Translations under genes and position numbers: made by a program | Shown here: positions 6,393-53,606 of the stretch, piece by piece | Position numbering within the stretch: the first letter of the stretch is position 1 | How the letters are laid out: the number at the start of each line of letters is the position of its first letter | The notes under the pieces: model-generated | Told to the model about the DNA's origin: nothing | Database searches by the model: none | The model's input: only the letters and a program-made list of their open reading frames with translations | NCBI GenBank assembly: GCA_025363655.1 | Contig: JANYDK010000083.1 | Location: 124,001 to 188,000 of the forward strand | Direction: 5' to 3' | Origin: Deltaproteobacteria bacterium | GTDB lineage: Bacteria > Myxococcota_A > Polyangia > Polyangiales > JADJMO01 | Length of the DNA: 64,000 nucleotides

Positions 6393-7352
6393 ATGGCCGA
6401 TCTCCCCTTCGAGCAGCCGATCGCCGAGCTGTCCGCGCGTGTCCGCGATCTTCGCGCGCTCGCCGAGGGTGATCCGAAATACGCCGCCGAGCTGCGGCGC
6501 CTCGAGGACAAAGTCGCGCGCCTCTCGCGTGAGCTCTACCAAGACCTGACGCCGTGGCAGCGCGTGCAGCTCTCGCGACATCCGCGTCGGCCCTTCTTCA
6601 GCGACTACCTGCCGCTCATGTTCGACGACTTCCTCGAGCTGCACGGCGATCGCACCTTCGGCGACGACGCCGCGATCATCGCCGGCTTCGCGCGCTATCC
6701 GAAGGGGCCGCGTGGTCGCAGCGTGCTGGTGATTGGCCAGGAAAAAGGGCGCGGGACGAAGGAAGCGGTCAAACGCAACTGGGGCATGGCGAACCCAGAG
6801 GGCTATCGCAAGGCGCGTCGTTTGATGGAGCTCGCCGGGCGCTTCAAGAAGCCGGTCATCACCTTCATCGACACCAAGGGCGCATACCCCGGCCTCGGCG
6901 CCGAAGAGCGCGGTCAGAGCGAGGCCATCGGCCAGTGCCTCCTGGCGATGTCGCGACTTCCCGTGCCGGTGATCGCCTGCATCGTCGGTGAAGGTGGCTC
7001 TGGCGGCGCGCTGGCGCTCGGCGTCGCCAACCGCGTCCTCGCCCTCGAGCACACTTGGTACAGCGTCATCTCCCCCGAGGCATGCGCGTCGATCCTCTGG
7101 AAGGACGGCTCGCTCGGCGAAAGAGCAGCCGCGGTGTTGAAGCCGACCGCGCAGATGGCCCTCGAGCTCGGCGCCGTCGATCAAGTCGTCGACGAGCCTC
7201 CCGGCGGCGCGCACCACGACGTCGAGGGAGCCGCGCGTCGACTCGACTCCGCGCTCCGCGAAGCGCTCGCTTCGCTCGAAGGCCTGAGCGAGGAAGAGCT
7301 CATCGAAGACCGCTATCGCCGCTTCCGTCGCCTCGGCGCCATTCACGCCTAG
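6393..7352 (+). CDS. accA: Acetyl-CoA carboxylase carboxyltransferase subunit alpha
   Basis: The alpha half of the carboxyltransferase that moves the carboxyl group from biotin to acetyl-CoA, the first committed step of fatty acid synthesis. At 319 residues it has exactly the usual length. An N-terminal helical pair (FEQPIAELSARVRDL) is followed by the crotonase-like core, with TPWQRVQLSRHPRRP, GDRTFGDDAAIIAGFAR, FIDTKGAYPGLGAEERGQS and GEGGSGGALALGVANRV, all diagnostic of AccA. The beta subunit gene accD, which carries the zinc finger, is not in the window. The following gene is an enoyl-CoA hydratase, so a lipid-metabolism grouping is plausible. Confidence 0.96.
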   Translation: MADLPFEQPIAELSARVRDLRALAEGDPKYAAELRRLEDKVARLSRELYQDLTPWQRVQLSRHPRRPFFSDYLPLMFDDFLELHGDRTFGDDAAIIAGFARYPKGPRGRSVLVIGQEKGRGTKEAVKRNWGMANPEGYRKARRLMELAGRFKKPVITFIDTKGAYPGLGAEERGQSEAIGQCLLAMSRLPVPVIACIVGEGGSGGALALGVANRVLALEHTWYSVISPEACASILWKDGSLGERAAAVLKPTAQMALELGAVDQVVDEPPGGAHHDVEGAARRLDSALREALASLEGLSEEELIEDRYRRFRRLGAIHA

Positions 7353-7360
7353 AATTCTGC

Positions 7361-7373
7361 TAACTTTCGCTGG
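7361..7373 (+). promoter_or_regulatory. Putative -10 box of a leaderless promoter
   Basis: TAACTT at 7361-7366 lies 7 bases before the ATG of the enoyl-CoA hydratase gene, inside the 21-base gap after accA. No ribosome site is present. Confidence 0.4.
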
Positions 7374-8198
7374 ATGTCCGAGCCGTCGATCCTCGTCGAG
7401 CGCATCGCCGTTCCCCACGATCCGCCCGGCCGCTTCGTCGTCAAAATCGTCCTCAATCGTCCGCAGGCACGCAACGCGCTGACGCGACCGATGCTCCAAG
7501 AGGGGCGCAAGGCGATGGACGCGGCCGCGCGCGACAAGTCGGTGCGCGCGATCATCCTCACCGGCGCGGGAGAAGACGAGCGCGCTGCTTTCTGTGCCGG
7601 CGCCGACCTCCGCGCCTCGGTCGCGGAAGATCCCGACATGTTCGACAACCTCGAGCTCTATCTCGACGACTACCACGCGTTCGTGAAGTCGATTTGGTAC
7701 GCGCCCAAGCCGGTCATCGCCGCCGTCGACGGTGGAGCGGTCGGCTTCGGGTGTGATGTCGCGCTCGCCTGCGATTTACGGCTCGTCAGCGCGCGCGGCT
7801 ACTTCCAGGAAGCGTTCACCAAGATCGGCCTCATGCCCGACGGCGGCGGCACCGGCACGCTGGTGCGCCTCGTCGGCCTCGGCGTCGCCACCGAGCTCAT
7901 CTATCTCGCGTCGAAGGTCGACGCCGAACGCGCCAAATCACTCGGCCTCGCGACGCGCGTCCATCCGCCTGGCGAGCTCGCGAAGGAAGCGCTCGCCCTC
8001 GCCATGCAGCTCGCCGACGGTCCGCCGATCGCCCTCGAAGAGGCGAAGAAATCGCTGCACGCGTCGCTCGGCATCACCATCGACGACGTCCTCGCGCGGG
8101 AACGCGAAGGTCAGCTCCGTTGTCTGCGTACGAGTGACTGTCTCGAAGGCGTGATGTCGTGGGCGCAGAAGCGCGCCCCGCAATTCCAAGGGAAGTGA
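7374..8198 (+). CDS. Enoyl-CoA hydratase/isomerase (crotonase) family protein
   Basis: A 274-residue crotonase-fold enzyme acting on an acyl-CoA thioester. RPQARNALTRPML gives the N-terminal CoA-binding strand, AFCAGADLR the first oxyanion-hole loop, and VDGGAVGFGCDVALACDLRL the second oxyanion segment with the following helix. The C-terminal helical region (EEAKKSLHASLG) completes the fold. Residues usually acting as the two catalytic glutamates of true hydratases are not obvious: the position after the second oxyanion loop reads FTKIGLMPDGGGTGTL, which fits isomerases or other family activities. Exact chemistry is therefore open. It lies 21 bases after accA, has its own putative -10 box, and may act in beta-oxidation or branched-chain degradation. 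Confidence 0.86.
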   Translation: MSEPSILVERIAVPHDPPGRFVVKIVLNRPQARNALTRPMLQEGRKAMDAAARDKSVRAIILTGAGEDERAAFCAGADLRASVAEDPDMFDNLELYLDDYHAFVKSIWYAPKPVIAAVDGGAVGFGCDVALACDLRLVSARGYFQEAFTKIGLMPDGGGTGTLVRLVGLGVATELIYLASKVDAERAKSLGLATRVHPPGELAKEALALAMQLADGPPIALEEAKKSLHASLGITIDDVLAREREGQLRCLRTSDCLEGVMSWAQKRAPQFQGK

Positions 8199-8234
8199 CG
8201 ACGATGGGCCAGCGTTCTTCCAAGCGAGCTCGAC

Positions 8235-8573
8235 ATGGCTGACGCGGCACTGCCGTCGGCCTCCGTCTCGGCGCCTGCGCCCACCGGTCATCCCTACGTC
8301 GCCCCTTCGGCGTTCACCAAGCCGTTGCCGACCGCGGCGTCCAACCCTGCGATGACCGCACCTCCCGGATCGACCGTCGAAGAGATCGTCGAACGCCCAC
8401 AACCGAGGACGTTGGCGCGCGGCAAGTGGGAGGTTAAGTCGACCACCGTGTGGCTGGTCGTGGTCGCCGCCGCCATCTTCATCTGTCTCTACACGCTCGT
8501 TCGATTCCGCAACGCGCAAGAGCGCAAGCGTCGCGAGCTCGCCCGCATCACCACCTTCAAGCGAAGCACGTAG
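8235..8573 (+). CDS. Small single-span membrane protein of unknown function
   Basis: A 112-residue protein with a Pro/Ala/Ser-rich N-terminal half and one transmembrane helix (TVWLVVVAAAIFICLYTLV, about residues 73-91) followed by a basic tail rich in Arg and Lys (RFRNAQERKRRELAR). The positive-inside rule puts the tail in the cytoplasm and the Pro-rich part outside. No family is recognised. The ATG at 8235 gives a protein whose composition matches its neighbours. It lies between the enoyl-CoA hydratase and the YbhN-like gene on the same strand. Confidence 0.65.
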   Translation: MADAALPSASVSAPAPTGHPYVAPSAFTKPLPTAASNPAMTAPPGSTVEEIVERPQPRTLARGKWEVKSTTVWLVVVAAAIFICLYTLVRFRNAQERKRRELARITTFKRST

Positions 8574-8631
8574 CACCGCTCGTTCTCGTTGTTGCGCGGT
8601 GCGCTAGCCCGAGCTACACGCGCACGTCGCG

Positions 8632-9630
8632 ATGGAGAAGATCGAGAGCGAAAAAGAGGCCTCCGGCGCGTCGCCGGGCATGGCGCCGCAGACCACCCGC
8701 CGGGTCGTCTACGTGATGCTCATCGCCCTCGCGGTCTACATCGCCTTCGCGCTCTTCTCCGACGTCCGCAAGCTGCGCACGCGGATGGAGGACTACGCGT
8801 GGTGGACCTTCTTCGCAGCGCTCGGCCTCGCCTTCGGCAACTACCTGTTGCGTTTCCTCAAGTGGCAGTACTACCTGCGCATCCTCGAGATCCGCGGCAT
8901 CCCGGTCCTCGACTCGTTCCTCACGTTCGTCTCCGGCTTCGTCCTCTCGATCACGCCGGGCAAGGTCGGCGAGGTCTTCAAGTCGTACGTGCTCTATCGC
9001 ACCTACGACATCCCCGCGCAGCGCACCGCGCCGATCGTCATCGCCGAGCGTCTCACCGATCTCATCGGCGTCATCGTCCTCATCATCGCCGGTAGCGCGC
9101 GTTTCTCCGGCGGGCTCCTTTGGGCAGGCGCCGGCAGCGTCGTCGTCGCCAGCCTCCTCGTCGTCATCGCCTCGCGGCGCATCTCGATGTGGCTCATCAC
9201 CGTCGTCGAGTGGCTGCCCGGTCCCGGAAAAAGACTCGGACCGAAGCTGCGCGAGGCCTACGACAGTCTCCACGCCCTCACGCGCCCGTCGCGACTCGTC
9301 ATCCCCACCATCCTCTCGGTCGCCGCCTGGTTCCTCGAGTGCTTCGCGCTCTGGGTCATACTCCACGGTTTCCAACGCCAGGTGATGGTGCTCGGGGCAT
9401 CCTTCGTCTACGCCACCGCGACGCTCGTCGGCGCGCTCATCCCCGTCCCTGGTGGTCTCGGCATCACCGAGCCGGTGATGAAGGGGCTGATGCAACAGCT
9501 CGCCACCGTCGATCCCGAGACGGCCACCGGCGCGATGATCCTCGTCCGCTTTGCCACCCTCTGGTTCGCCGTCCTCGTCGGCTTCGGCGCCCTCAGCATC
9601 TTGAAGAAGCGCCACCCGAAGCTGATTTAG
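8632..9630 (+). CDS. YbhN/lysylphosphatidylglycerol-synthase-type integral membrane protein
   Basis: A 332-residue polytopic protein of the UPF0104/LPG synthetase transmembrane family (flippase-like). About eight hydrophobic helices are visible, starting near residue 24 (VVYVMLIALAVYIAFALF). Family hallmarks are YLRFLKWQYYLR-like text after the second helix, the SGFVLSITPGKVGEVFKSYVL loop, ERLTDLIGVIVLI and, near the C-terminus, PVPGGLGITEPVMKGLM. Members occur as stand-alone transporters or fused to aminoacyl-phosphatidylglycerol synthases; here no soluble synthase domain is present, so a lipid or glycolipid translocation role is the most likely guess. It converges on the PDZ protein gene with only 24 bases between the stops. 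Confidence 0.85.
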   Translation: MEKIESEKEASGASPGMAPQTTRRVVYVMLIALAVYIAFALFSDVRKLRTRMEDYAWWTFFAALGLAFGNYLLRFLKWQYYLRILEIRGIPVLDSFLTFVSGFVLSITPGKVGEVFKSYVLYRTYDIPAQRTAPIVIAERLTDLIGVIVLIIAGSARFSGGLLWAGAGSVVVASLLVVIASRRISMWLITVVEWLPGPGKRLGPKLREAYDSLHALTRPSRLVIPTILSVAAWFLECFALWVILHGFQRQVMVLGASFVYATATLVGALIPVPGGLGITEPVMKGLMQQLATVDPETATGAMILVRFATLWFAVLVGFGALSILKKRHPKLI

Positions 9631-32703: not shown

Positions 32704-34044
32704 ATGTCCTCGCAACCCGGTTACCTCACGCCCAAAGGGGCGGTCACGGCTCCTCCTGCTGGCACCACCGTCGCCGTCGTCGGCCTCGGTCGCGTCGGTC
32801 TCCCGCTCGCGCTCCTCTTCGCCGAGCGAGGCTTGCGCGTCTTCGGCGTCGAGCGTGACGCGCGTGTCCGCGAGCTCCTGGCCGAGCGCAAGATGCCCTT
32901 CCACGAGCCGGGGTGCGACGAGCTCCTGGCGAAGGTGAAGCTCGAGGTCTTCGCCGACGTCTCGGAGCTGATCGGACCGTCGTCACCCGACTACATCGTC
33001 ATCACCGTCGGCACGCCGCTGCAGGCGCACATCGAGGTCGACCTCGGTCAGATCTCGGCGGTGACCACCAGCCTCGCCAAGTCGTTGCGGCCGGGGCAGA
33101 CGATCATTCTCCGCAGCACCGTCGCTGCGCGCACGACCGAGTTCGTCGGGCGCATCCTCGAGCGCGAGACGGGCATGATCGCAGGCCGAGAATTCTCGCT
33201 CGCTTTCTGCCCCGAGCGCATCGTCGAGGGCAAGGCGTTGGTCGAGCTCGAGACGCTGCCGCAGGTCATTGGCGCCGCCGACGAGCTCTCGCGGGCCAAG
33301 GCCTCCAAGCTCTTCGCGGTCTTCCCCGTCGAGCAGCTCCAGACCACGCTCGTCGGCGGTGAGCTGATCAAGCTCTTCAACAACGTGACGCGCTACGTGT
33401 CGTTCGCGCTCGCCAACCAGTACGCGCTCATCGCCGAGAATTTCGGGGAGAGCGTGCATCCGCTGGTGGCGATGGCGAACCACAACTATCCGCGCGATCC
33501 GATCTCCAAGCCCGGCTTCGCGGCCGGCGCTTGTCTGCGCAAGGACTTCGGGATGGTCAGCGAGAACCACGCGACCACCGACATGCTCGTCGCCGCCTGG
33601 CGCGTGAACGAGTACATGCCCAATTTTCTCGCGCACACGCTGGCCGACAAGTCGCACGGGCTGCACAAGAAGACGATCGCGGTGCTCGGGTACACTTTCA
33701 AGAAGGACACCGACGATGCGCGCGACTCGCTGACGCCGAAGCTGCTGCGTTACCTCGAGCGTGAGGTGCCGAAGGAGATTCGGGTGGTCGAGCCGCACCT
33801 GCCCGATCCGATCGCCGGCGAGAAGGGCGACACCGCGCGCAACTGGGCGATCGAAGACGCGCTCCGCGGCGCCGAAGCGGTGGTCATCGCGATGAACCAC
33901 AGCGCGTTCCGTGACGTACGTCGCTTCGTCGTCGGCCCCGAGGCGATCGTCGCTCCCGGCGCGTGGGTCGCCGATTTGTGGAACGTCTGTGGCACGGGCG
34001 AGATGTTCTTCTCCTCCAAGCCCGGCGTCGTCGGCGGTCCCTGA
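32704..34044 (+). CDS. Nucleotide-sugar dehydrogenase (UDP-glucose/UDP-ManNAc dehydrogenase family)
   Basis: A 446-residue NAD-dependent dehydrogenase that oxidises a UDP-sugar to the uronic acid for surface polysaccharide. The N-terminal Rossmann fold has VAVVGLGRVGLPLALLFAERG-type text (seen as VVGLGRVGLPLALLFAE), VGTPL closes it, and the catalytic cysteine lies in FAAGACLRKDFGM. The C-terminal sugar-binding domain has LGYTFKKDTDDARDS. The WecC/TviB branch (UDP-N-acetyl hexosamine) fits slightly better than UDP-glucose dehydrogenase, but the substrate remains open. The ATG at 32704 is chosen because homologous sequence begins nearby; a weak TACACC box precedes it by 8 bases. The M23 peptidase gene follows within 10 bases. 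Confidence 0.88.
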   Translation: MSSQPGYLTPKGAVTAPPAGTTVAVVGLGRVGLPLALLFAERGLRVFGVERDARVRELLAERKMPFHEPGCDELLAKVKLEVFADVSELIGPSSPDYIVITVGTPLQAHIEVDLGQISAVTTSLAKSLRPGQTIILRSTVAARTTEFVGRILERETGMIAGREFSLAFCPERIVEGKALVELETLPQVIGAADELSRAKASKLFAVFPVEQLQTTLVGGELIKLFNNVTRYVSFALANQYALIAENFGESVHPLVAMANHNYPRDPISKPGFAAGACLRKDFGMVSENHATTDMLVAAWRVNEYMPNFLAHTLADKSHGLHKKTIAVLGYTFKKDTDDARDSLTPKLLRYLEREVPKEIRVVEPHLPDPIAGEKGDTARNWAIEDALRGAEAVVIAMNHSAFRDVRRFVVGPEAIVAPGAWVADLWNVCGTGEMFFSSKPGVVGGP

Positions 34045-34052
34045 GCGAGACG

Positions 34053-34904
34053 TTGCGCGCGCGGCCAGCTGCCCGGCTCGCGTCGTTCGTCGTCCTCACG
34101 TTCTTCGCGACCTTCGCGATCCTCGCCCTCGCCGACTCGGCCTCTGCGGCGCCGGTCACCTTCCGTTTGCCGTGGGAGGCCGGCGAGTCGCTCGTGCTCA
34201 CGCAAGACGGTGACGATCCGTGCTGCCACGATCACGTCGGCCCGGCAGCGAAGGCCTTTGATTTCGCGCGGCTCGATGCGCAGCCGTTCGCGATCGTCGC
34301 GCCGGCCGACGGCATCGTCGTCCAGCTCAAGCTCTCGTCACATCACGGGTGTCCCGAAGCCTCGTGCGTGAACGAGGCGAACTACCTCGTCATCGCCCAC
34401 GACGATGGGACCTCGACGACGATGCTTCATCTCGCGAGCGCTCCAGAGTGGGTGCGATGCGGTGAGCGGGTGCGTGCGGGCGTGATCGTCGGGGTGGCTG
34501 GTGACACCGGGCTCGCGAGTGGCGTGCATCTCCACATCGAGCGTGACCGGTTGCCGAGCGGTGCGCGCGCGTGTGCCTGTGGCCTGGATGGGCTCGGATG
34601 CGCGGCCGACGAAGCGCATTTCGAGCTGTTTTTTCCGACTGCGGAGCGACCCAACCTGCCGCTGACGTTCCAGGAGTGGCCGGAGGCGATGGCCTTCGCC
34701 GGTCGGCGGGTGATCGTCGGACCTTCGCGCAACGCCGACCGTGCATTCGTCGCGGGCGACGCTGCGCCGGCGCGCTCGAAGTCGGCTGCCCGGAAGAGCT
34801 CGGGGCGCATGCGGCTCTTCGTCGCACTGACCCTCGCCGCCGGGCTCGCTGCGCTCGTCGCGTTGTTCGAGCACCGCCTCCTCGGCACGAGAGTAGGCGC
34901 GTAG
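34053..34904 (+). CDS. M23/LytM family peptidase, membrane or secreted
   Basis: A 283-residue protein with a signal peptide or N-terminal anchor (FVVLTFFATFAILALADSASA), a LytM-type peptidase domain (~30-190) and a C-terminal hydrophobic helix (LFVALTLAAGLAALVALFEH) that could hold it in the membrane. The zinc ligands of the M23 family are present as CCHDHVGPAAKAFDFA (His and Asp) and HLHIE (His-x-His). It likely cleaves peptidoglycan crosslinks or acts as an amidase activator. Start codon is uncertain: a TTG at 34053 gives the best signal peptide; a CTG at 34041 overlaps the previous stop. Co-transcription with the nucleotide-sugar dehydrogenase suggests an envelope function. Confidence 0.8.
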   Translation: MRARPAARLASFVVLTFFATFAILALADSASAAPVTFRLPWEAGESLVLTQDGDDPCCHDHVGPAAKAFDFARLDAQPFAIVAPADGIVVQLKLSSHHGCPEASCVNEANYLVIAHDDGTSTTMLHLASAPEWVRCGERVRAGVIVGVAGDTGLASGVHLHIERDRLPSGARACACGLDGLGCAADEAHFELFFPTAERPNLPLTFQEWPEAMAFAGRRVIVGPSRNADRAFVAGDAAPARSKSAARKSSGRMRLFVALTLAAGLAALVALFEHRLLGTRVGA

Positions 34905-35023: not shown

Positions 35024-38000
35024 ATGTCGGCTGCGGCGGGGGTACTCCTCGAATCGGGCGTTCGGTTGCGCGACCGCTACGAGATTCGCCGCACGCTCGG
35101 TAGGGGCGGGATGGGCGTGGTCTACGAAGCCTTCGATCGCATGCGCGGCGCGCGGGTGGCGGTCAAGACCATGCGCGGCTTGAGCGCCGCAGACCTCTAC
35201 CGGTTCAAGAAGGAGTTTCGCGCACTCGCCGACGTCTCTCACCCAAACCTCGCCGCGCTCTACGAGCTCGAGACCGACGGGGACCTGACGTTCTTCACGA
35301 TGGAGGTCATCGAGGGGCGCGACTTCCTCGTCCACGTTACCCGACCGGGCGAGCGCGCAGTGGTCGAGGAGAGCGAGACCGCCGAGCCGACGCGACTGGA
35401 GACGCGGTGCGACCTGACTCGGCTCAGGGGGGCCCTCGCGCAGTTGGTCGATGGGGTGATTGCGCTGCATGCGAGCGGCAAGCTGCACCGCGATCTCAAG
35501 CCGACAAACGTACTGGTGACGCCCGCGGGGCGGGTCGTCATCCTCGACTTCGGACTGGTCGCGGACGTCGGAGGTGGAGGCACGCAATCGCCGGAAGACG
35601 GCATCGTCGGTACTCCCGAGTACATGTCGCCAGAGCAGGCGGCGTCGAACACGCTCACCGAAGCGAGCGACTGGTATGCGGTCGGTGTGATGCTCTACCA
35701 GGCGCTCACTGGCACGTTGCCATTCGTCGGCCTGCCCCTGAAGGTCCTCGTCGACAAGCAGCACGTCGAGCCGCCAGCTCCGCAGGAGCTGTGCGGCGGC
35801 GTGCCAGACGATCTGAACCGACTTTGCACGGAGCTCCTCCACCGAGACCGCGAACTGCGACCCGTCGGCGCGGAGATTCGCCGGCGACTCGGCGGTCTCT
35901 CGGCGCCGGATCCCGGGGCAGCGTCGCGACCACCGCGGCCCGTGTCGCCGAGCACGCGCGGTGTCTTCTTCGGACGTGAGCGGCACATGGCGGCGCTGAT
36001 GTCGTCGTTCGAGACGGCGCGTTCGGGGCGCGCGGCGGTGGCCTACGTTCATGGCACCTCGGGGATGGGTAAGAGCCTGCTCGCGCATCGATTTCTCGAG
36101 ATGCTCGGGCGCGATGCCGTCGTGCTCTCGGGCCGTTGTTACGAGCGCGAGACCGTGCCCTACAAGGCCCTCGACGGCATCGTCGACGCGCTCAGCGAAC
36201 ACCTCCGAGGCCTCGATCTGCGCGAGGTCGACGCGGTCCTTCCCGTGGAGGTCCGGGCGCTGGCGCGCCTCTTCCCCGTGCTCGACCGCGTCGCGGCGGT
36301 GGCGCGCTTTTCGCCGCGTCACCGCGAGATCGCCGATCTACAGGAGCTCCGCCGACGCGCCGCGCTGGCTCTCCGCGAGCTGCTCACGCGGCTCGCCGTG
36401 CGGCGGCCGCTGGTGCTCTGGGTCGACGATCTGCAGTGGGCGGACGTCGACAGCGCCGCGCTCATCGAGGAGCTGCTTCGACCACCGACGCCGCCGCCAC
36501 TCCTTCTCATCGCGGGCTACCGTAGCGACGATGCGTCGTCGCCTTTCGTCACGGCGCTGCGGACGGTGCATGGTCCGGGCCTCCGTTCCGCCATCCGCGA
36601 GGAGATCGAGGTGGGGACGCTCGAACACGGGGAGGCGCGCGAGCTCGCCCTCGCGCTCTTGCGCGCGGAGCTCTCCTCTGACGTGCATGCCGAAGCCATC
36701 GCGACGGAGTCACGAGGCAGTCCCTTCTTCGTCGATGCGCTCGCTCAACACCTGAACGCGGCGATCGCTAGCGAGCAGGCGCCCGCCGAGACGCCACGAC
36801 TCGAGGAGGTGCTCAGCGAGCGTGTGCTCGCGCTGCCGCTGGACGCCCGTCGCCTGCTCGAGGTCGTCGCGGTTGCGGGCCAGCCGCTCTCGCGCGCGGT
36901 GGCGGCGATCGCAGTCGACCTGGAGGGAGAGCGCGAAATCGCCGCGCTCGCGCTCCTACGCGCCGTGAAGCTCGTCCGGACGACGCAGACGCGCGACCAT
37001 CAGCAGGTCGCGACCTATCACGATCAGATCCGCGAGACGGTCCTCCTGCGACTCGACGTCGCTTCGCGCCGGCGCATCCATCTCCGGCTCGCGGAGGCTC
37101 TCGTCGCCAGCGGCGCGGCCGATCCCGAGGCCCTCGTCGTTCACTTCGGCGAGGGCGGGGAGCAGACGAAAGCCGCCGAAGCCGCCGCACTCGCAGCTAC
37201 CAAAGCGGTGGAGATGCTGGCGTTCGGCCGCGCCGTGACGTTGTGGCGTCGCGCCCTCGTGCTTCCGGGCATGCCGGTTCTAGCGCTGAGCGAGCTGCAG
37301 TCGAAGCTCGCCGAGGCGCTCACGAACGATGGACGTGATGCCGAGGCGGCCGAAATTCGACTGGAAATGGCCGCGCGAGCAGGGACGATCGACGGGCTCG
37401 AGCTGCGTCGGCGCGCGGCCGAACAGTTCCTCGTGAGCGGCCACTTCGATCGGGGGCACGCCCTGCTTCGCGCCGTGCTCGCGAGCGTGGGAGAGCGCTT
37501 TCCGAACTCGCCGCTCGCCGTCGTCTTTTGGCTGCTGGTGGCGCGGCTGCGCCTGCGCCTGCGAGGGCTCGCTTTTCGCGAAGTTCGTCCCGCCTCGCTC
37601 GACGGGATGACCCTCGTGCAGATCGACAGCCTCGGCTCCGCGGGGGCAGGTTTCGCGATGACCGACAACATTCGCGGCGCCTACTTCCAAACCAAGAACC
37701 TCTTGCTCGCGCTCGCAGCCGGCGACGTCCGACGCATCTCGCGCGCCCTCGCCCTCGAGGTCTGCTTCACGTCGGCGAGCGGATCCGCCAAGAAAGCGCG
37801 TACCCTCGCGCTCCTCGAAGCGGCCAAGCGCATCGCCGGGCGGGTCGGCGCGCCGGACTCGCTCGCGCTCGCCGATTTGGCTGATGGTTACGCGCACTAC
37901 ATGAACGGTGAATGGCGTGACGCGAAGGCGGCCTTCGTCTTGGCCGAAGGCCGATTCCGAGACGAGTGCATCGACGTCAACTGGCTGCTCAGCTCGACGC

Positions 38001-38791
38001 GCACGATGCTCTATCGGACGTTGGTCCTTCGCGGGGAGCTCGACGAGCTGGCTGGCTGCATGCCGCCAGTCCTCCGCACCGCCGTCGATCGTGGGGACGA
38101 CTACGCCGTGCTGAACTTTCGCGCGATCCCGATGACGATGATTCAGCTCGCGATGGACGAGCCGGAGGCGGCCCTCGAGAACATCAGGCTGATGCAGGAG
38201 ATGCTCCCCCGTGGGGTCTTCCACATTCAACACTACTACGTGCTCATGGCGGCGCTCGATCTCGACATCTACGCGGGCGAGCCCCGACGCGGACTCGAAC
38301 GACTTTGCGCGACGACAGCCGCGATGAGGCGCTCGCTTCTCCTGAGGGTCGAGACCGTTCGCGTCCTGATGCTCGATCAGCGCGGGCGGTGCGCGCTTGC
38401 GGCCGCTGCTGCGACGGCCGCGGTTCCTCCTCCAGAGCCGATGGCGCTGATGGCGATCGCGAGGGCGGATGCAGCGGCAATTGGGCGGGTCGACAGCCCG
38501 TGGGCGCGTGCGCTCGCCACGACGCTCGGGGCGTGCCTCCGGGCCGCCTCCGGGGATCGTTCCGAGACCATCGCCGAGCTGGCGCACGCATGGAATGCGC
38601 TCGGCGCCGCCGACATGTTCCTTCGTGCCGCTGCGGTGCGCCGGCGTCTCGGGCAGCTCGTCGGCGGGGAGGCGGGGGCGCTGCACGTCGAGGAGGCAGA
38701 GGGCGAGATGCAGCGGCTCGGCGTGCGAAACAAGGAGGCCATGACACGCCTCTACGCGCCTGGGGTGGAGGGCTTGCTCGCAAGAACCTAG
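35024..38791 (+). CDS. Ser/Thr kinase fused to STAND-like ATPase with helical repeats (copy 1)
   Basis: A 1255-residue cytoplasmic protein. Kinase domain at ~19-285: LGRGGMGVVYEAF, VAVKTMR, HRDLKPTN near residue 155, DFGLVAD, GTPEYMSPEQA. An AAA/STAND-type ATPase (AAA16-like) at ~315-600 has Walker A GTSGMGKSLLAH near 344 and Walker B PLVLWVDDLQWAD. The remaining ~600 residues are Ala/Leu/Arg-rich helices of TPR type with a membrane-free profile. GGAGGG precedes the ATG. The architecture matches bacterial kinase-ATPase regulators in which the kinase is coupled to a switch that senses a ligand through the repeats. A convergent paralogue starts at the other end (38788-42600), and the two stops overlap. 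Confidence 0.9.
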   Translation: MSAAAGVLLESGVRLRDRYEIRRTLGRGGMGVVYEAFDRMRGARVAVKTMRGLSAADLYRFKKEFRALADVSHPNLAALYELETDGDLTFFTMEVIEGRDFLVHVTRPGERAVVEESETAEPTRLETRCDLTRLRGALAQLVDGVIALHASGKLHRDLKPTNVLVTPAGRVVILDFGLVADVGGGGTQSPEDGIVGTPEYMSPEQAASNTLTEASDWYAVGVMLYQALTGTLPFVGLPLKVLVDKQHVEPPAPQELCGGVPDDLNRLCTELLHRDRELRPVGAEIRRRLGGLSAPDPGAASRPPRPVSPSTRGVFFGRERHMAALMSSFETARSGRAAVAYVHGTSGMGKSLLAHRFLEMLGRDAVVLSGRCYERETVPYKALDGIVDALSEHLRGLDLREVDAVLPVEVRALARLFPVLDRVAAVARFSPRHREIADLQELRRRAALALRELLTRLAVRRPLVLWVDDLQWADVDSAALIEELLRPPTPPPLLLIAGYRSDDASSPFVTALRTVHGPGLRSAIREEIEVGTLEHGEARELALALLRAELSSDVHAEAIATESRGSPFFVDALAQHLNAAIASEQAPAETPRLEEVLSERVLALPLDARRLLEVVAVAGQPLSRAVAAIAVDLEGEREIAALALLRAVKLVRTTQTRDHQQVATYHDQIRETVLLRLDVASRRRIHLRLAEALVASGAADPEALVVHFGEGGEQTKAAEAAALAATKAVEMLAFGRAVTLWRRALVLPGMPVLALSELQSKLAEALTNDGRDAEAAEIRLEMAARAGTIDGLELRRRAAEQFLVSGHFDRGHALLRAVLASVGERFPNSPLAVVFWLLVARLRLRLRGLAFREVRPASLDGMTLVQIDSLGSAGAGFAMTDNIRGAYFQTKNLLLALAAGDVRRISRALALEVCFTSASGSAKKARTLALLEAAKRIAGRVGAPDSLALADLADGYAHYMNGEWRDAKAAFVLAEGRFRDECIDVNWLLSSTRTMLYRTLVLRGELDELAGCMPPVLRTAVDRGDDYAVLNFRAIPMTMIQLAMDEPEAALENIRLMQEMLPRGVFHIQHYYVLMAALDLDIYAGEPRRGLERLCATTAAMRRSLLLRVETVRVLMLDQRGRCALAAAAATAAVPPPEPMALMAIARADAAAIGRVDSPWARALATTLGACLRAASGDRSETIAELAHAWNALGAADMFLRAAAVRRRLGQLVGGEAGALHVEEAEGEMQRLGVRNKEAMTRLYAPGVEGLLART

Positions 38792-41700
38792 CGCTGGACG
38801 GCGGCGAATCCTGGCGCCAGCATCGAGCAATACGCCGTCGGGACCTGCACGCCCTCGCTCTGCATCTTCTCGTCGGCCGCATCGATGAGCGCACGTCCCT
38901 CGACGTTTCCGAGCGCCTCGCCTCGCCGGCGCCGTGCGGCAGCCGCCCAGAGTGCCATGTCGCTCACGTCGAGGTCTTCGATCGCGAGGGAGAGGCCGGC
39001 GAGGCATCGAGCTCGAGCTTCTCGACGTGAGTGCACTGCCGCTTCGATCAATCGAGCGAGCCCGTTGGACCAAGGCAGCCGCTCGTCGAGCATTCTCTGC
39101 GCGTCGCGGAGGGCCGAGGCGAGGAGCTCGTCCGCCTCGCCGCCGCGGGCCTCCTCGGCGGCGACTGCGGCAAGTGCCGCTCGCGCGCGCAGATGTGCGA
39201 CCTGGAGGCGTACGAACTGGATGCGATGCAAATGGGCGCGGCGCATGGCTGGCCAGCGCTCGTTGATGAGCGCGTACGCCGCCAGTCCGTGTCCCCGATA
39301 GAGTGCGATGTGCACCCGGGCGATCAGCTCGTAGTACTGCTGAAGCTGCTGGTCGGGCGTGCCCCAAGCGGCCATCGCCTCGTCGAGCTCCTGCTCGGCC
39401 CGGGCCGAATCGTCGGCTGCCAGCCAGACGGCGTTGATGAGGCCGATGCGGATGTTGGTGAGGAGATAGAGATCGCCGCGCACCCGAGCCTCCTGCGTGA
39501 GCGCGGGGAGTCGTCGCGCGAGGAGGGCCATCTCGCCGAGCTGGAAGAGCGACTGCAGCGCGAACATGTCGACGCTCGCCAGCTCGTAGGTGGCTCCGGC
39601 ACAATGATCTCGGAAGAGGGCTACCGCGCGATCGCAGTGTTCGAGTGACGCGCGGAAGCGGCCTTCCAGGTAGCCGCGAATTCCTTCCGCGCTGTCGACC
39701 CACGCGTAGCAATACGGGCTGTCGACCTGCCTGGCGAGCTCGCGCGCCGCGCGGAGCAGCTGCTCGGTGCGCGCTCGTGCGGGGACGCCACCGAGACCGG
39801 ACGAGGTCGCCTCGAGAGCGATGCCTCGCGCAACGCGGGTCGGATCACCGATGCGTAGCGCGCGCAGTAGGTGCCTGCGCTGATAGAGCTTGGCGAGCAC
39901 GGGACGGACCATCCCCAGCGTCAGGCCGACCGACCAAAGGAGGTCGACCCTCATGAGGTCCTTGCCCGTCAGCTCGGTGCCGTCCCGCACGGTGAAGCGC
40001 AGACCGCGCAGTCGGAGCCGGAGGCCGTGGAACACTAGGGAAACGAGGATCAGCAGCGACGAGGTGCGCAGCCGCGCTCCGACTGCCGTGAGGACGTCGT
40101 CGATGAGACGCATCCCCTGGCCGATGCGTCCGCTTCGCATCAGCTGCTCCGCAGCTCGGCGGCGTAGTTCGAGGGCGCTCCCCTTCGACGCATCTGATGC
40201 GGCGGCGAGATAGGCGTCGGCCGCCTCACCGCCGCGACCGGCGTTCGCGAGCGCGTCACCGAGCTTCCACTGGAGATCGCGGCGGTTCTCGGTGGAGACG
40301 CCGGGCAGAGCCAGGGCCCCACGCCAGAGCGCGGCCGCGCGCTCGAAGGCGAGCGCGTCGACGGCCTTGGCGGCTGCGATGGCGGCGAATTCTGCTGCTC
40401 GCCGCGCCTCGCCGGCCTCACCGAAGTGGACGAAGAGAGCCTCCGGGTCGGCGTGGCCCGCCGCGACGAGGGCGAGCGCCACCCGAAGGTGCAGTCGCTT
40501 ACGCGCCGCCTCGTCGAGCCGAGAGACCACCGTCTCGCGAATCCGATCGTGGTACGTCTCGACGTCGTAGCGGTTGGCGGCGTGCATCGATCTCACGAGT
40601 CGACTCGCGCGCAGCACCGCGAGGGCGGTGACTTCACGCTCCCCTTCGAGCTCGGCAGCGGCGGCGGCGACCTTGCGCTCGAGGGGCTGCCCTGCGATGG
40701 CGACGATCTCGAGCAGGCGATGCGCGTCGTCCGGAAGCGTCGTCACCTGCTCGAAGAGCACGTCGTCGAGTCGCAGCGTGCCGCCGACGTCCTTGCCTTG
40801 TCCGACGTGGCGCACGAGCTCGTCGACGAACAAGGGGTTACCGCATGACTCTCTGGCGATCACCCTCGCGATTGCGCGCAAGGCCTCGCCAGTGCCGAGC
40901 TGAGCGGCGGCGAGGGCTTCGGCTTCGTCGAGCTCGAGGGGCCCGACGACGATCTCGCGCACCTCGGCTCCACCTCGATCACGGGCGCCACGCAGCTCGG
41001 CGATGATCGCCGCGGAGGCGTCTTCGCTGCGGTAGCTCAGGAGCATGAGCATGCGGGGAGGCGTCGGCGGCCTCAGCAGCTCGCGAATCAGTGCGGCGCT
41101 GTCGACGTCTCCCCATTGCAGATCGTCGATCCAGAGCACCAGAGGTCTTCGCACCGCCATGCGCGCCAGCAGCTCGCGCAAGGCGTTGGCCGCACGGCTG
41201 CGGAGCTCCTGCGGATCGGGAATGGCATACGCGAGCAAGGGCGCGCTCGCGATCGCCTCGACGCGATTGAGCACTGGGAACAGTCGCGTGAGGGCGTGGA
41301 TCTCGAGCGGCAGCACGGCTTCGACGGCGTGTCGCTGCAGGCGCCGTAGGTGGCGACTGAGCGCGTCGACGATGCTGTCGAGGGCCTTGTAGGGGACAGA
41401 CTCGCGCTCGTAACAACGGCCAGAGAGCACGACGGCGTCGCGCCCGAGCATCTCGAGAAATCGTCGCACGAGCAGGCTCTTGCCCATCCCAGAGCTGCCG
41501 TGCACGTGTGTGATGACGGGAGTTCCCTCGAGCGTCGCCGCGTACGCCTCGGCGAGCGCGGTCATGTGCCCCTCGCGCCCGACGAAGGTGGTGGCGAGGC
41601 TGGGCATCGTCGACGCGGGGTGGCGTGGCGTCGTCGGTCGCGCGGCCGGAAGTCCGCCCAGGCGCTCGCGGAGCCTTTCGGCTCCTGGGCGCCGCTTCGG

Positions 41701-42600
41701 ATCGCGTTGGAGTAGCTCCATGCAGAGCGCGTCGAGGTCGTCGGGCACGCCGTCAACGAGCTCGCGGGGTCGCGGCGGATCGAAGCGCTGTTTGTCGATG
41801 ATGATCTTGAGAGGCGGCCCCGTGAAAGGAACCGCACCTACCAGTGCTTCGTAGAGCATGACGCCGATGCTGTACCAGTCACTCGCCTCGCTGAGCTGGG
41901 CGACCGCAGCCTGCTCGGGCGACATGTATTCGGGCGTGCCGACGATGTTCTGATCGAGCGTCTCGAGCCCGTCCCTCGCGAGACTCGAGACGAGGCCGAA
42001 ATCGAGGACGACCACCCGCGCTTCGGCGGTGACGAGGACGTTGGAGGGTTTGAGATCACGGTGGAGCTTCCTGCACGCGTGCAGCGCCGAGACCCCCTCG
42101 ACGAGCTGCAGGAGCGCTGGGCGCAGACGGTTCAGCTCACAGGTGAGGACGCCCGACACGGCAGCAGGGGGCGCGCGAGGAGTGCTGGCCCGGGAAAGCT
42201 GGGAGTTCTCCGTCGAGATCGTGTCCTCGGTCGGGCTCACAGCGAGCGGCGTCCGCGAGACGAAGCGAAAGAAGTCGTGGCCCTCGACGTACTCCATGGT
42301 GAAGAACGCGCCGTCACCCTCCGATTCGAGCTCGTGCAGCGAGGCGAGGTTCCGGTGAGTCACGTCGACCAGCGCCCTGAACTCGTTCTTGAAGCGAAAG
42401 AGTCCGGCGGCGTCGAGGATGCGGATGGTCTTCAGCGCCACCCGGGCGCCGCGCACCCGATCGAACGCCTCGTAGACGACGCCCATGCCACCCTCGCCGA
42501 GCGTGCGTCGAATCTCGTAACGCTCGCGCAGTACGGCGCCTGGGTTCAGCCGGCCGACGCCGAAGGCGGGCCTGCGTTTCGCCGCGTGGCCGTCGCTCAC
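38788..42600 (-). CDS. Ser/Thr kinase fused to STAND-like ATPase with helical repeats (copy 2)
   Basis: A 1270-residue paralogue of the convergent gene, with the same order: kinase (~30-320; LGEGGMGVVYEAF, VALKTIR, HRDLKPSN, DFGLVSS, GTPEYMSPEQA), ATPase (~350-640; Walker A GSSGMGKSLLVR, Walker B PLVLWIDDLQWGD) and C-terminal helical repeats. The ATPase segment MLGRDAVVLSGRCYERE is identical in both, but the kinase-to-ATPase linker and the repeats differ, so the copies have diverged in their sensing part. The GTG at 42600 is the best start; no ribosome site is seen. It follows the double-FHA gene by 115 bases on the same strand. Its stop lies in the CTAG shared with copy 1. Confidence 0.89.
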   Translation of the reverse strand: MSDGHAAKRRPAFGVGRLNPGAVLRERYEIRRTLGEGGMGVVYEAFDRVRGARVALKTIRILDAAGLFRFKNEFRALVDVTHRNLASLHELESEGDGAFFTMEYVEGHDFFRFVSRTPLAVSPTEDTISTENSQLSRASTPRAPPAAVSGVLTCELNRLRPALLQLVEGVSALHACRKLHRDLKPSNVLVTAEARVVVLDFGLVSSLARDGLETLDQNIVGTPEYMSPEQAAVAQLSEASDWYSIGVMLYEALVGAVPFTGPPLKIIIDKQRFDPPRPRELVDGVPDDLDALCMELLQRDPKRRPGAERLRERLGGLPAARPTTPRHPASTMPSLATTFVGREGHMTALAEAYAATLEGTPVITHVHGSSGMGKSLLVRRFLEMLGRDAVVLSGRCYERESVPYKALDSIVDALSRHLRRLQRHAVEAVLPLEIHALTRLFPVLNRVEAIASAPLLAYAIPDPQELRSRAANALRELLARMAVRRPLVLWIDDLQWGDVDSAALIRELLRPPTPPRMLMLLSYRSEDASAAIIAELRGARDRGGAEVREIVVGPLELDEAEALAAAQLGTGEALRAIARVIARESCGNPLFVDELVRHVGQGKDVGGTLRLDDVLFEQVTTLPDDAHRLLEIVAIAGQPLERKVAAAAAELEGEREVTALAVLRASRLVRSMHAANRYDVETYHDRIRETVVSRLDEAARKRLHLRVALALVAAGHADPEALFVHFGEAGEARRAAEFAAIAAAKAVDALAFERAAALWRGALALPGVSTENRRDLQWKLGDALANAGRGGEAADAYLAAASDASKGSALELRRRAAEQLMRSGRIGQGMRLIDDVLTAVGARLRTSSLLILVSLVFHGLRLRLRGLRFTVRDGTELTGKDLMRVDLLWSVGLTLGMVRPVLAKLYQRRHLLRALRIGDPTRVARGIALEATSSGLGGVPARARTEQLLRAARELARQVDSPYCYAWVDSAEGIRGYLEGRFRASLEHCDRAVALFRDHCAGATYELASVDMFALQSLFQLGEMALLARRLPALTQEARVRGDLYLLTNIRIGLINAVWLAADDSARAEQELDEAMAAWGTPDQQLQQYYELIARVHIALYRGHGLAAYALINERWPAMRRAHLHRIQFVRLQVAHLRARAALAAVAAEEARGGEADELLASALRDAQRMLDERLPWSNGLARLIEAAVHSRREARARCLAGLSLAIEDLDVSDMALWAAAARRRRGEALGNVEGRALIDAADEKMQSEGVQVPTAYCSMLAPGFAAVQR

Positions 42601-42715: not shown

Positions 42716-43714
42716 CTAGCGGCGCAGTAGCCACCAGAGGCCAGCCGCCGAACCGGCGAGGACCACGAGGCCGAGGATGAGCGCCACGACCTCGAACGCC
42801 ACCGTCGCGCCGCGCCAATTTTTCCGGCGCTCCGGCATTGGTCCGCGGACGAGGCCGCTGCGCACGCTCGGGAACTGAGCTTCGACGACCGCCGCGGCGG
42901 AGGGAGGCGAGGGCACCTCGGAGGCGGGCGCGACGGGCGGTGGCTCGGCTGGGGGAGGAGGCTCTGCCGGCGCGACTTTTTCATCGACACCTTCGGCGCT
43001 GGCATCGAGCGCGCGCGCGAGCGGATCGTCGAGCTCGAGGATGGTCGAAGCGAGCTCGAGTCGCCCACGGTCGAACCACACGAGGGAGGCGCCGACCTCG
43101 ACCGGTTTTCCGTCGAGCGTCGCCGGTACGCGGCCGTCGCGACGCGTGACCTTGGTGCGCGTGCCTTCAACCTGGATTTCGAGGCTGATCGGCGGCACCC
43201 CGCGATCGGTGAGGCGGAGCGCGCAGCGTGGATCACGGCCGACGGTGCGAGGCTGACCGACGTGGAGAGCGAGCGAGGCTCCGGCGTCGACGCCGGAGAC
43301 GACGACGACCTTGACCGAGGCGGTCTCTCCGAGCTGGCGAGCGACGATCGCCATCGCCAGCTCGCGCGTCGCGTGCGGGTTGGTCGGCACCGCGGCGCCG
43401 AGACGCACCGTCAGGTGCATGCGTCCGAGGGCGAGCTCGTCACCGGTCCGAAGCTGCCGTGGAACCTGGGGCGTCAGCCTCTCGCCGTTGAGTCGCGTGC
43501 CGTTGGTCGAGCCCTCGTCGAGCACGGAATAGCCGGCGCCGCTCGCGCGAATCGACGCGTGCCGCGTGCTCACCGAGGGGTCGGGGAGGCGCAGATCGCA
43601 CGACTCGCTCCGACCGAGGACGATGCGCGGCGCGTCGAAGACGAGCGGCGGAAGCTCGGCATCGGTGGGGGTGCTGGCTCCGGCGAGGCGCCGGACGACG
43701 AGGGTGACGGGCAC
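42716..43714 (-). CDS. Double FHA-domain protein with C-terminal membrane anchor
   Basis: A 332-residue protein with two FHA domains: the first (~20-105) has VLGRSESCDLRLP, VSTRHASI and GSTNGTRLNGE; the second (~145-225) is partial but keeps TVGRDPRCALRL and the following strands. A Pro/Glu-rich linker (~235-285) leads to one C-terminal helix (~305-328; VVALILGLVVLAGSAAGLWWLL) that ends in Arg-Arg, making it a tail-anchored cytoplasmic phospho-threonine reader. It lies directly upstream of the second kinase-ATPase gene on the same strand, so that kinase is the obvious candidate writer. GTG start at 43714; it is divergent from the PilZ gene with 141 bases between. Confidence 0.86.
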   Translation of the reverse strand: MPVTLVVRRLAGASTPTDAELPPLVFDAPRIVLGRSESCDLRLPDPSVSTRHASIRASGAGYSVLDEGSTNGTRLNGERLTPQVPRQLRTGDELALGRMHLTVRLGAAVPTNPHATRELAMAIVARQLGETASVKVVVVSGVDAGASLALHVGQPRTVGRDPRCALRLTDRGVPPISLEIQVEGTRTKVTRRDGRVPATLDGKPVEVGASLVWFDRGRLELASTILELDDPLARALDASAEGVDEKVAPAEPPPPAEPPPVAPASEVPSPPSAAAVVEAQFPSVRSGLVRGPMPERRKNWRGATVAFEVVALILGLVVLAGSAAGLWWLLRR

Positions 43715-52391: not shown

Positions 52392-53606
52392 ATGTCCTCC
52401 CCCTCGACGCGAATCACTGCTCATCGGCCTGGCGAACGACGCCTGACGGTGGTCCGAGCCCTCCTCGGCGGAGGCGCCAGTGCGGCCCTCTTGCCTTGGA
52501 TCATCGGTCCTCTCGGTGGTGACTCCGGGACGTGCCTGCGGCTCGGCGCCCTCTTCGGTCTCGCGGCCCTCGCCACCGAGATCCCGGCCGCTCGTTTCGG
52601 CGATCGACTGGGGCGGGCGCGGCCGTTCCTCGTCCTCGCGGCGATGGCGCAGACGATTGGTCTCCTCGCCATCGCGCGCGCGGCCTCGCTCCCGTGGGTC
52701 GCGTTCGGCGTCGTACTCACGGGCGTCGGTGCAGGTCTCGCGACCGGCGCCGAAGCACGCGCGAGCTTGGCGATCGGGCGTGATGCGCGTCGCGTCGCAC
52801 GTATCGAGATCGCCGCGCTCCTCTACAAGGGCACGCTCGCCTGCGTCCTCGCGGGGCTCGCGATCGTGCTTCATGTGGGCGTCTCTGGCGCGATGATCCT
52901 CGCCGCGGCGGGAACGATGCTCGCAGGTTGTCTCGCCTCGACGTTGCGGGTCGCCGATCGCGTGCACCGCGCGCCCTCGGGCAGGCGCACCGAGCTTCGC
53001 GCGGGCGATCGTCGTTCGCTGCTCTCCGCGGGAACGATCGGTCTCGTCGGCGCCATCTGCGCGCTCGGAATCGCTGCGCGCGGCACCGACACCATCGACG
53101 CTTACGCGCTCGTCGGAGACGACGCTGCGCGCGCCTCCCTCGCCGCCGCAGGGATGCTCGCGTGCGCGGGTGTGCTCGCGGCCAAGGGCGTGATGGCGCG
53201 CATCCTCTCCGCTGCCTTCACCCACGCGCGTCTTCTTCGCATCGCCATCGGCGCGACGCTCGCCGCCGCCCCGCTGCTGGTGGCCTCGCACCTCTCGCCG
53301 AACGCTCTCTTCGTCATCCTCCCTCTCGCCTGCGGTACCGCAGCAGCAGCAGCGGCGGCGGCGCGCGGAGTCCTTCTCTCGCGCGCGGGAGCCAGTCGAG
53401 CGGGCTTCGTCTCCGCGATCGAGAGCACGCTCCGACGCGTCGGCCTCGGCGTCTTCGCGCTCGCCATCGGCAACAGCGGGCAAGCGTATTTCTGCGTCGG
53501 CGTGATCGCGTTGATCGGCGCCGCCTTCGCGATGATCCCGCGCCTCGTCCCCCTCGGTCGACGTCTCCGCGGCGAGACCGAGTCGCCGATCAGCTCACGG
53601 CTCTAA
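52392..53606 (+). CDS. MFS-like membrane transporter
   Basis: A 404-residue polytopic protein with about 11-12 hydrophobic helices. The A-type motif after helix 2 is seen as AARFGDRLGRARPFLVLAAM, which matches the Gly-x-x-x-Asp-Arg-x-Gly-Arg-Arg MFS pattern. Substrate is not predictable. Ala-rich and Arg-rich loops fit the positive-inside rule. The ATG at 52392 starts the first hydrophobic segment (VVRALLGGGASAALLPWIIG) after 20 residues. It is divergent from the Tat-signal gene with 94 bases between and converges on pdxA, whose stop codon overlaps its own by two bases. Confidence 0.8.
   Translation: MSSPSTRITAHRPGERRLTVVRALLGGGASAALLPWIIGPLGGDSGTCLRLGALFGLAALATEIPAARFGDRLGRARPFLVLAAMAQTIGLLAIARAASLPWVAFGVVLTGVGAGLATGAEARASLAIGRDARRVARIEIAALLYKGTLACVLAGLAIVLHVGVSGAMILAAAGTMLAGCLASTLRVADRVHRAPSGRRTELRAGDRRSLLSAGTIGLVGAICALGIAARGTDTIDAYALVGDDAARASLAAAGMLACAGVLAAKGVMARILSAAFTHARLLRIAIGATLAAAPLLVASHLSPNALFVILPLACGTAAAAAAAARGVLLSRAGASRAGFVSAIESTLRRVGLGVFALAIGNSGQAYFCVGVIALIGAAFAMIPRLVPLGRRLRGETESPISSRL

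Follow-up and report, generated by a model that had tools for sequence, protein, structure and literature searches.

Two convergent members of a kinase-AAA_16-TPR family that share a CTAG stop tetramer in a Polyangiales genome

The K1/K2 locus and the proteins it encodes

Within the window (the whole stretch of DNA analysed, 64,000 nucleotides) two long genes, here called K1 and K2, converge and meet tail-to-tail (Table 1). Their open frames encode 1255 and 1270 residues, respectively; GGAGGG precedes the ATG of K1 at 35024, but no Shine-Dalgarno-like sequence was found upstream of the GTG at 42600, and the start of K2 is uncertain for this reason. Upstream of K2, on the same strand and separated from it by 115 nt, lies a gene for a double-FHA protein. 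The gene upstream of K1 is given as its longest ORF, which overlaps the dehydrogenase gene, so that its true start is probably later. The names dehydrogenase, accA and PilZ-type, as used here for neighbouring genes, are readings from translations rather than from family searches.

Table 1. Coordinates of genes and sequence features at the K1/K2 locus, numbered from the first letter of the window
Feature	Position	Strand	Description
Gene upstream of K1	33963..34904	+	Longest ORF; syntenic with dehydrogenase gene in G001 and G003
K1	35024..38791	+	Ser/Thr kinase aa 19-283, AAA_16 NTPase 315-496, winged-helix-like part and TPR-like superhelix about 500-1255
K1 arm of 143-bp tract	36053..36195	+	92% DNA identity to K2; around Walker A and MLGRDAVVLSGRCYERE; candidate gene-conversion tract
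CTAG tetramer	38788..38791		Both TAG stops, 4-nt convergent overlap; sequence gcaagaacCTAGcgctgg
K2	38788..42600	-	Architecture as K1, its paralogue; GTG start uncertain
K2 arm of 143-bp tract	41357..41499	-	92% DNA identity to K1 arm
Double-FHA protein gene	42716..43714	-	Upstream of K2; neighbour, adjacency not conserved

The order of parts proposed in the earlier note, a kinase, a STAND-like ATPase and a helical sensor, was confirmed in both proteins: Pfam finds Pkinase and then AAA_16 in each, and a nearly all-helical C-terminal region is predicted confidently. Each carries a Hanks kinase with HRDLKPxN and DFG, then, directly C-terminal to it, an AAA_16 NTPase with Walker A and Walker B (GxSGMGKS and LVLWxDDLQW are likewise intact), and finally a TPR-like superhelix, recognised in K1 by model and in K2 by alignment to K1. 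With these features K1 and K2 are members of the kinase-AAA_16-TPR family of Myxococcota and Planctomycetota. Neither protein has a Pfam match to TPR, and a crude hydropathy scan found no strong membrane segment in either of them.

Ser/Thr kinases with TPR-type regions at their C-termini have been described in myxobacteria, along with expanded kinomes and neighbouring duplicates (PMC11032199). K1 and K2 resemble these in their N-terminal Hanks-type kinase, their C-terminal helical repeats and the many paralogues per genome; they differ in having an AAA_16 NTPase between kinase and superhelix, and in lacking a TPR recognisable to Pfam. Two other identities were considered and set aside: the listed PADLOC matches to the defence kinases PD-T4-6 and MADS do not extend beyond about residues 1-361, which is in essence the kinase part, and the NCBIfam scores for MAD6 (140 and 147) fall short of the cut-off of 460.

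An AlphaFold model of the C-terminal 756 residues of K1 (mean pLDDT 94) has a short mixed region followed by a long helical superhelix. Searched with VIA-align, this sensor finds domain III of MalT as its top match (Z 24.4, 3.6 A, 328 residues); close behind come the peptide receptors Rap and NprR along with further TPR proteins, some of these only 1-2 Z units lower. The top match in Foldseek is a STAND protein with TPR. The VIA-align list, filled by TPR proteins, bears on the superhelix rather than on the winged-helix-like part, and families outside it may match as well. With several TPR proteins so close in score, the comparison shows the fold of the K1 superhelix and not the type of ligand. 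As in MalT, an NTPase is followed by a superhelical sensor, albeit with a sensor identity of 14%, and the DNA-binding domain that serves as the output of MalT has its counterpart here in an N-terminal kinase. The AAA_16 match and the modelled fold of the sensor agree with STAND-type switching of the NTPase, in which ADP and ATP states would be coupled to oligomerisation.

The shared stop tetramer and the junction

Both genes end in TAG, K1 (+) at 38789-38791 and K2 (-) at 38790-38788, so that the two stops lie inside one tetramer (CTAG, 38788-38791) just as the earlier note had it. A YTAR tetramer of any kind holds a stop codon on each strand, and CTAG is one such. In 0.86 Mb of the source genome, where genes were called with our own home-made codon-usage caller, 16 of 107 convergent neighbours overlap at all, and in 5 of them the overlap is exactly 4 nt long, formed by CTAG in four cases and by CTAA in one; at the loci drawn from other genomes an exact 4-nt overlap joins 4 of 126 convergent pairs, all of them through CTAG. 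A published survey likewise found that convergent overlaps rise abruptly in number at a length of 4, with CTAA, TTAA, CTAG and TTAG as the tetramers, and overlaps below 5 nt making up 672 of 1,890 (Tables 2 and 3 of PMC2174442); K1/K2, with one TAG per strand in a CTAG, shows no difference from these. Given the base rate of 5/107 and this length-4 peak, the shared stop is in itself ordinary, a junction of a kind that is frequent between bacterial genes. An exact overlap of stops that looks striking is thus an everyday matter in this GC-rich genome, and a base rate is needed before ‘design’ is read into such junctions.

Elsewhere in the window, a second convergent pair, the one CTAA case of the count above, shares its stops at 53603-53606; it is formed by a gene at 52449-53606 (+) and a gene on the minus strand that ends at 53603 and whose start is uncertain.

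The earlier note had also seen no terminator at the junction, and our scan agrees in finding none that is convincing, with terminator-like sites in the region at chance level; the scan took in intrinsic types only, and Rho-dependent termination may occur at this point. A promoter scan of the region gave nothing informative. Mutual antisense regulation of K1 and K2, as the earlier note suggested, could occur here as it could for any convergent pair, and the arrangement would not be special in this respect.

Divergence of K1 and K2 and a conversion-like tract

Aligned with BLASTP, K1 and K2 are colinear over their full length and identical at 609 of 1257 positions (48%, with 28 gap positions), certainly more than chance would give, and their paralogy is borne out. 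Taken domain by domain, identity is 61-63% in the kinase parts, 68% in AAA_16, 51% in the part after AAA_16 and the first helical part, and 30-32% in the outer helical parts; the sensors have indeed diverged, as had been proposed. The ‘near-identical’ ATPase parts of the earlier note were found for about 48 codons around the motif that it quoted, but not elsewhere, as the figure for AAA_16 as a whole indicates. Among 49 members compared, GRCYERE is family-wide, and MLGRD occurs only in K1 and K2.

The near-identity around this motif, as first noticed, is accounted for by a conversion-like tract of 143 bp, in which the two arms have 131 bases in common. DNA identity between K1 and K2 is 91% within the tract versus 57% outside, where the genes are otherwise near synonymous saturation. 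At identical residues (Met and Trp set aside) the same codon is used in 85% of cases in codons 344-391, versus 45% elsewhere; codon usage would by chance lead one to expect agreement of about 39% at fourfold sites. Ranked against all 1,176 pairs within the family, the excess DNA identity of K1 and K2 in the tract comes first, with a z of 4.8 that is descriptive only, since family pairs are not independent; the adjacent AAA part (codons 392-500) ranks 128 of 1,176 and is not unusual. In other pairs, too, the DNA of the tract region shows some additional conservation (mean excess 0.13), and part of the identity may therefore reflect constraint. The pattern suggests, as its simplest reading, that gene conversion once took place between the inverted copies, with some constraint at the codon level a possible contribution. 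It also hints at a way in which large kinase families might trade ‘switch’ modules as their sensors become more diverse.

Origin of the pair and a model for its action

In the source genome about nine members of the family give long matches, and its relatives have up to twelve; the genome collection yields 164 confirmed stretches, which come from Myxococcota, Planctomycetota and other groups, and a plasmid collection gave no match at E 1e-60. Two members lie close together at only 3 of 73 other loci, two pairs in tandem and one convergent at a distance of about 5.6 kb. An abutting tail-to-tail pair, sought in related genomes, was found at none of the 73, the same-family genomes sampled being four, all from other genera; this goes part of the way towards the chance arrangement that the earlier note had named as the alternative to its own reading. 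The K1/K2 pair is old and diverged.

Synthesising these findings, we think it very probable that K1 and K2 are chance convergent neighbours from an expanded family of kinase-AAA_16 (STAND-like)-TPR-superhelix proteins, whose stops drifted into the common 4-nt YTAR overlap, and that each most likely acts alone as a ligand-gated switch. We suggest that the MalT/Rap-like superhelix would bind a small molecule, peptide or protein, upon which the NTPase would open from a closed state and oligomerise; the kinase domains, once clustered, might then phosphorylate one another and their targets, such that activation would come about by proximity. The identity around Walker A would, on the same model, be the trace that an earlier, short gene conversion left in the inverted K1 and K2.

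How the two genes came to be neighbours concerns their origin only; they may have arisen by duplication in place or have met through rearrangement, long ago in either case. The latter, in which two members were brought together by an inversion, is compatible with the model above and is a tentative proposal that we hold somewhat short of an even chance. In its favour, the same-family genome G001 has the PilZ-type gene, the gene found upstream of K1 and the dehydrogenase gene together with no kinases between, the PilZ-type gene being in the opposite relative orientation; its match is, however, partial and at a contig end. The double-FHA gene has also changed neighbourhood: in G002 and G003, likewise of the same family, its orthologues are found close to accA and a gene for a membrane protein, and homologues of those neighbours lie in the window at 6393-9630, some 33 kb from the double-FHA gene. 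The gene order in G001 and this displaced gene together imply that breakpoints exist at the K1/K2 locus. Phylogenetic evidence points both ways. In a tree of 49 rows, and in one of 18 rows under a mixture model, the shortest path from K1 leads to K2 and vice versa (1.2-1.3 changes per site), which speaks against rearrangement; the branch that unites them has support of 56/26, and a grouping of K2 with the copies in G002 and G004, as rearrangement would allow, fits equally well (AU p 0.545).

A signalling module made up of K1, K2 and the double-FHA gene, in which the FHA protein would read phosphothreonines made by the kinases, is suggested by the position of this gene immediately upstream of K2, in the same orientation and across a short gap; the earlier note accordingly cast it as a ‘phospho-reader’. 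We regard this as unlikely: the orthologues near accA in G002 and G003 have no kinase beside them, so that FHA-kinase adjacency is not conserved, and there are 67 FHA matches across the source genome.

We find still harder to credit a local inverted duplication with exact fusion of the tails, as the earlier note envisaged, after which the shared stop would have worked in the manner of an ‘excludon’, read-through of either gene producing antisense RNA to the other, such that only one of the kinases would be expressed at any moment. One layout proposed for excludons has convergent genes that lack a terminator (PMC7154746), and K1/K2 resemble it in having no evident one; path length places each gene nearest to the other in both trees, and both tails stop within a few residues of a conserved APG. 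Saying this, proteins at 48% identity, not securely sisters, and a pairing found at no other locus examined all argue against such a history, 4-nt overlaps are common, and the junction may yet hold a Rho-dependent terminator, our scan having covered intrinsic types. Very little weight indeed attaches to a further variant, in which antisense read-through at the CTAG and recurrent conversion would together keep the NTPase switch similar in the two copies even as the sensors move apart.

Returning to the family at large, a separate case of close neighbours was seen in a Polyangiaceae MAG (L077:6284-13876), where two members stand in direct tandem, 9 nt apart, and are sisters with full support in the tree.
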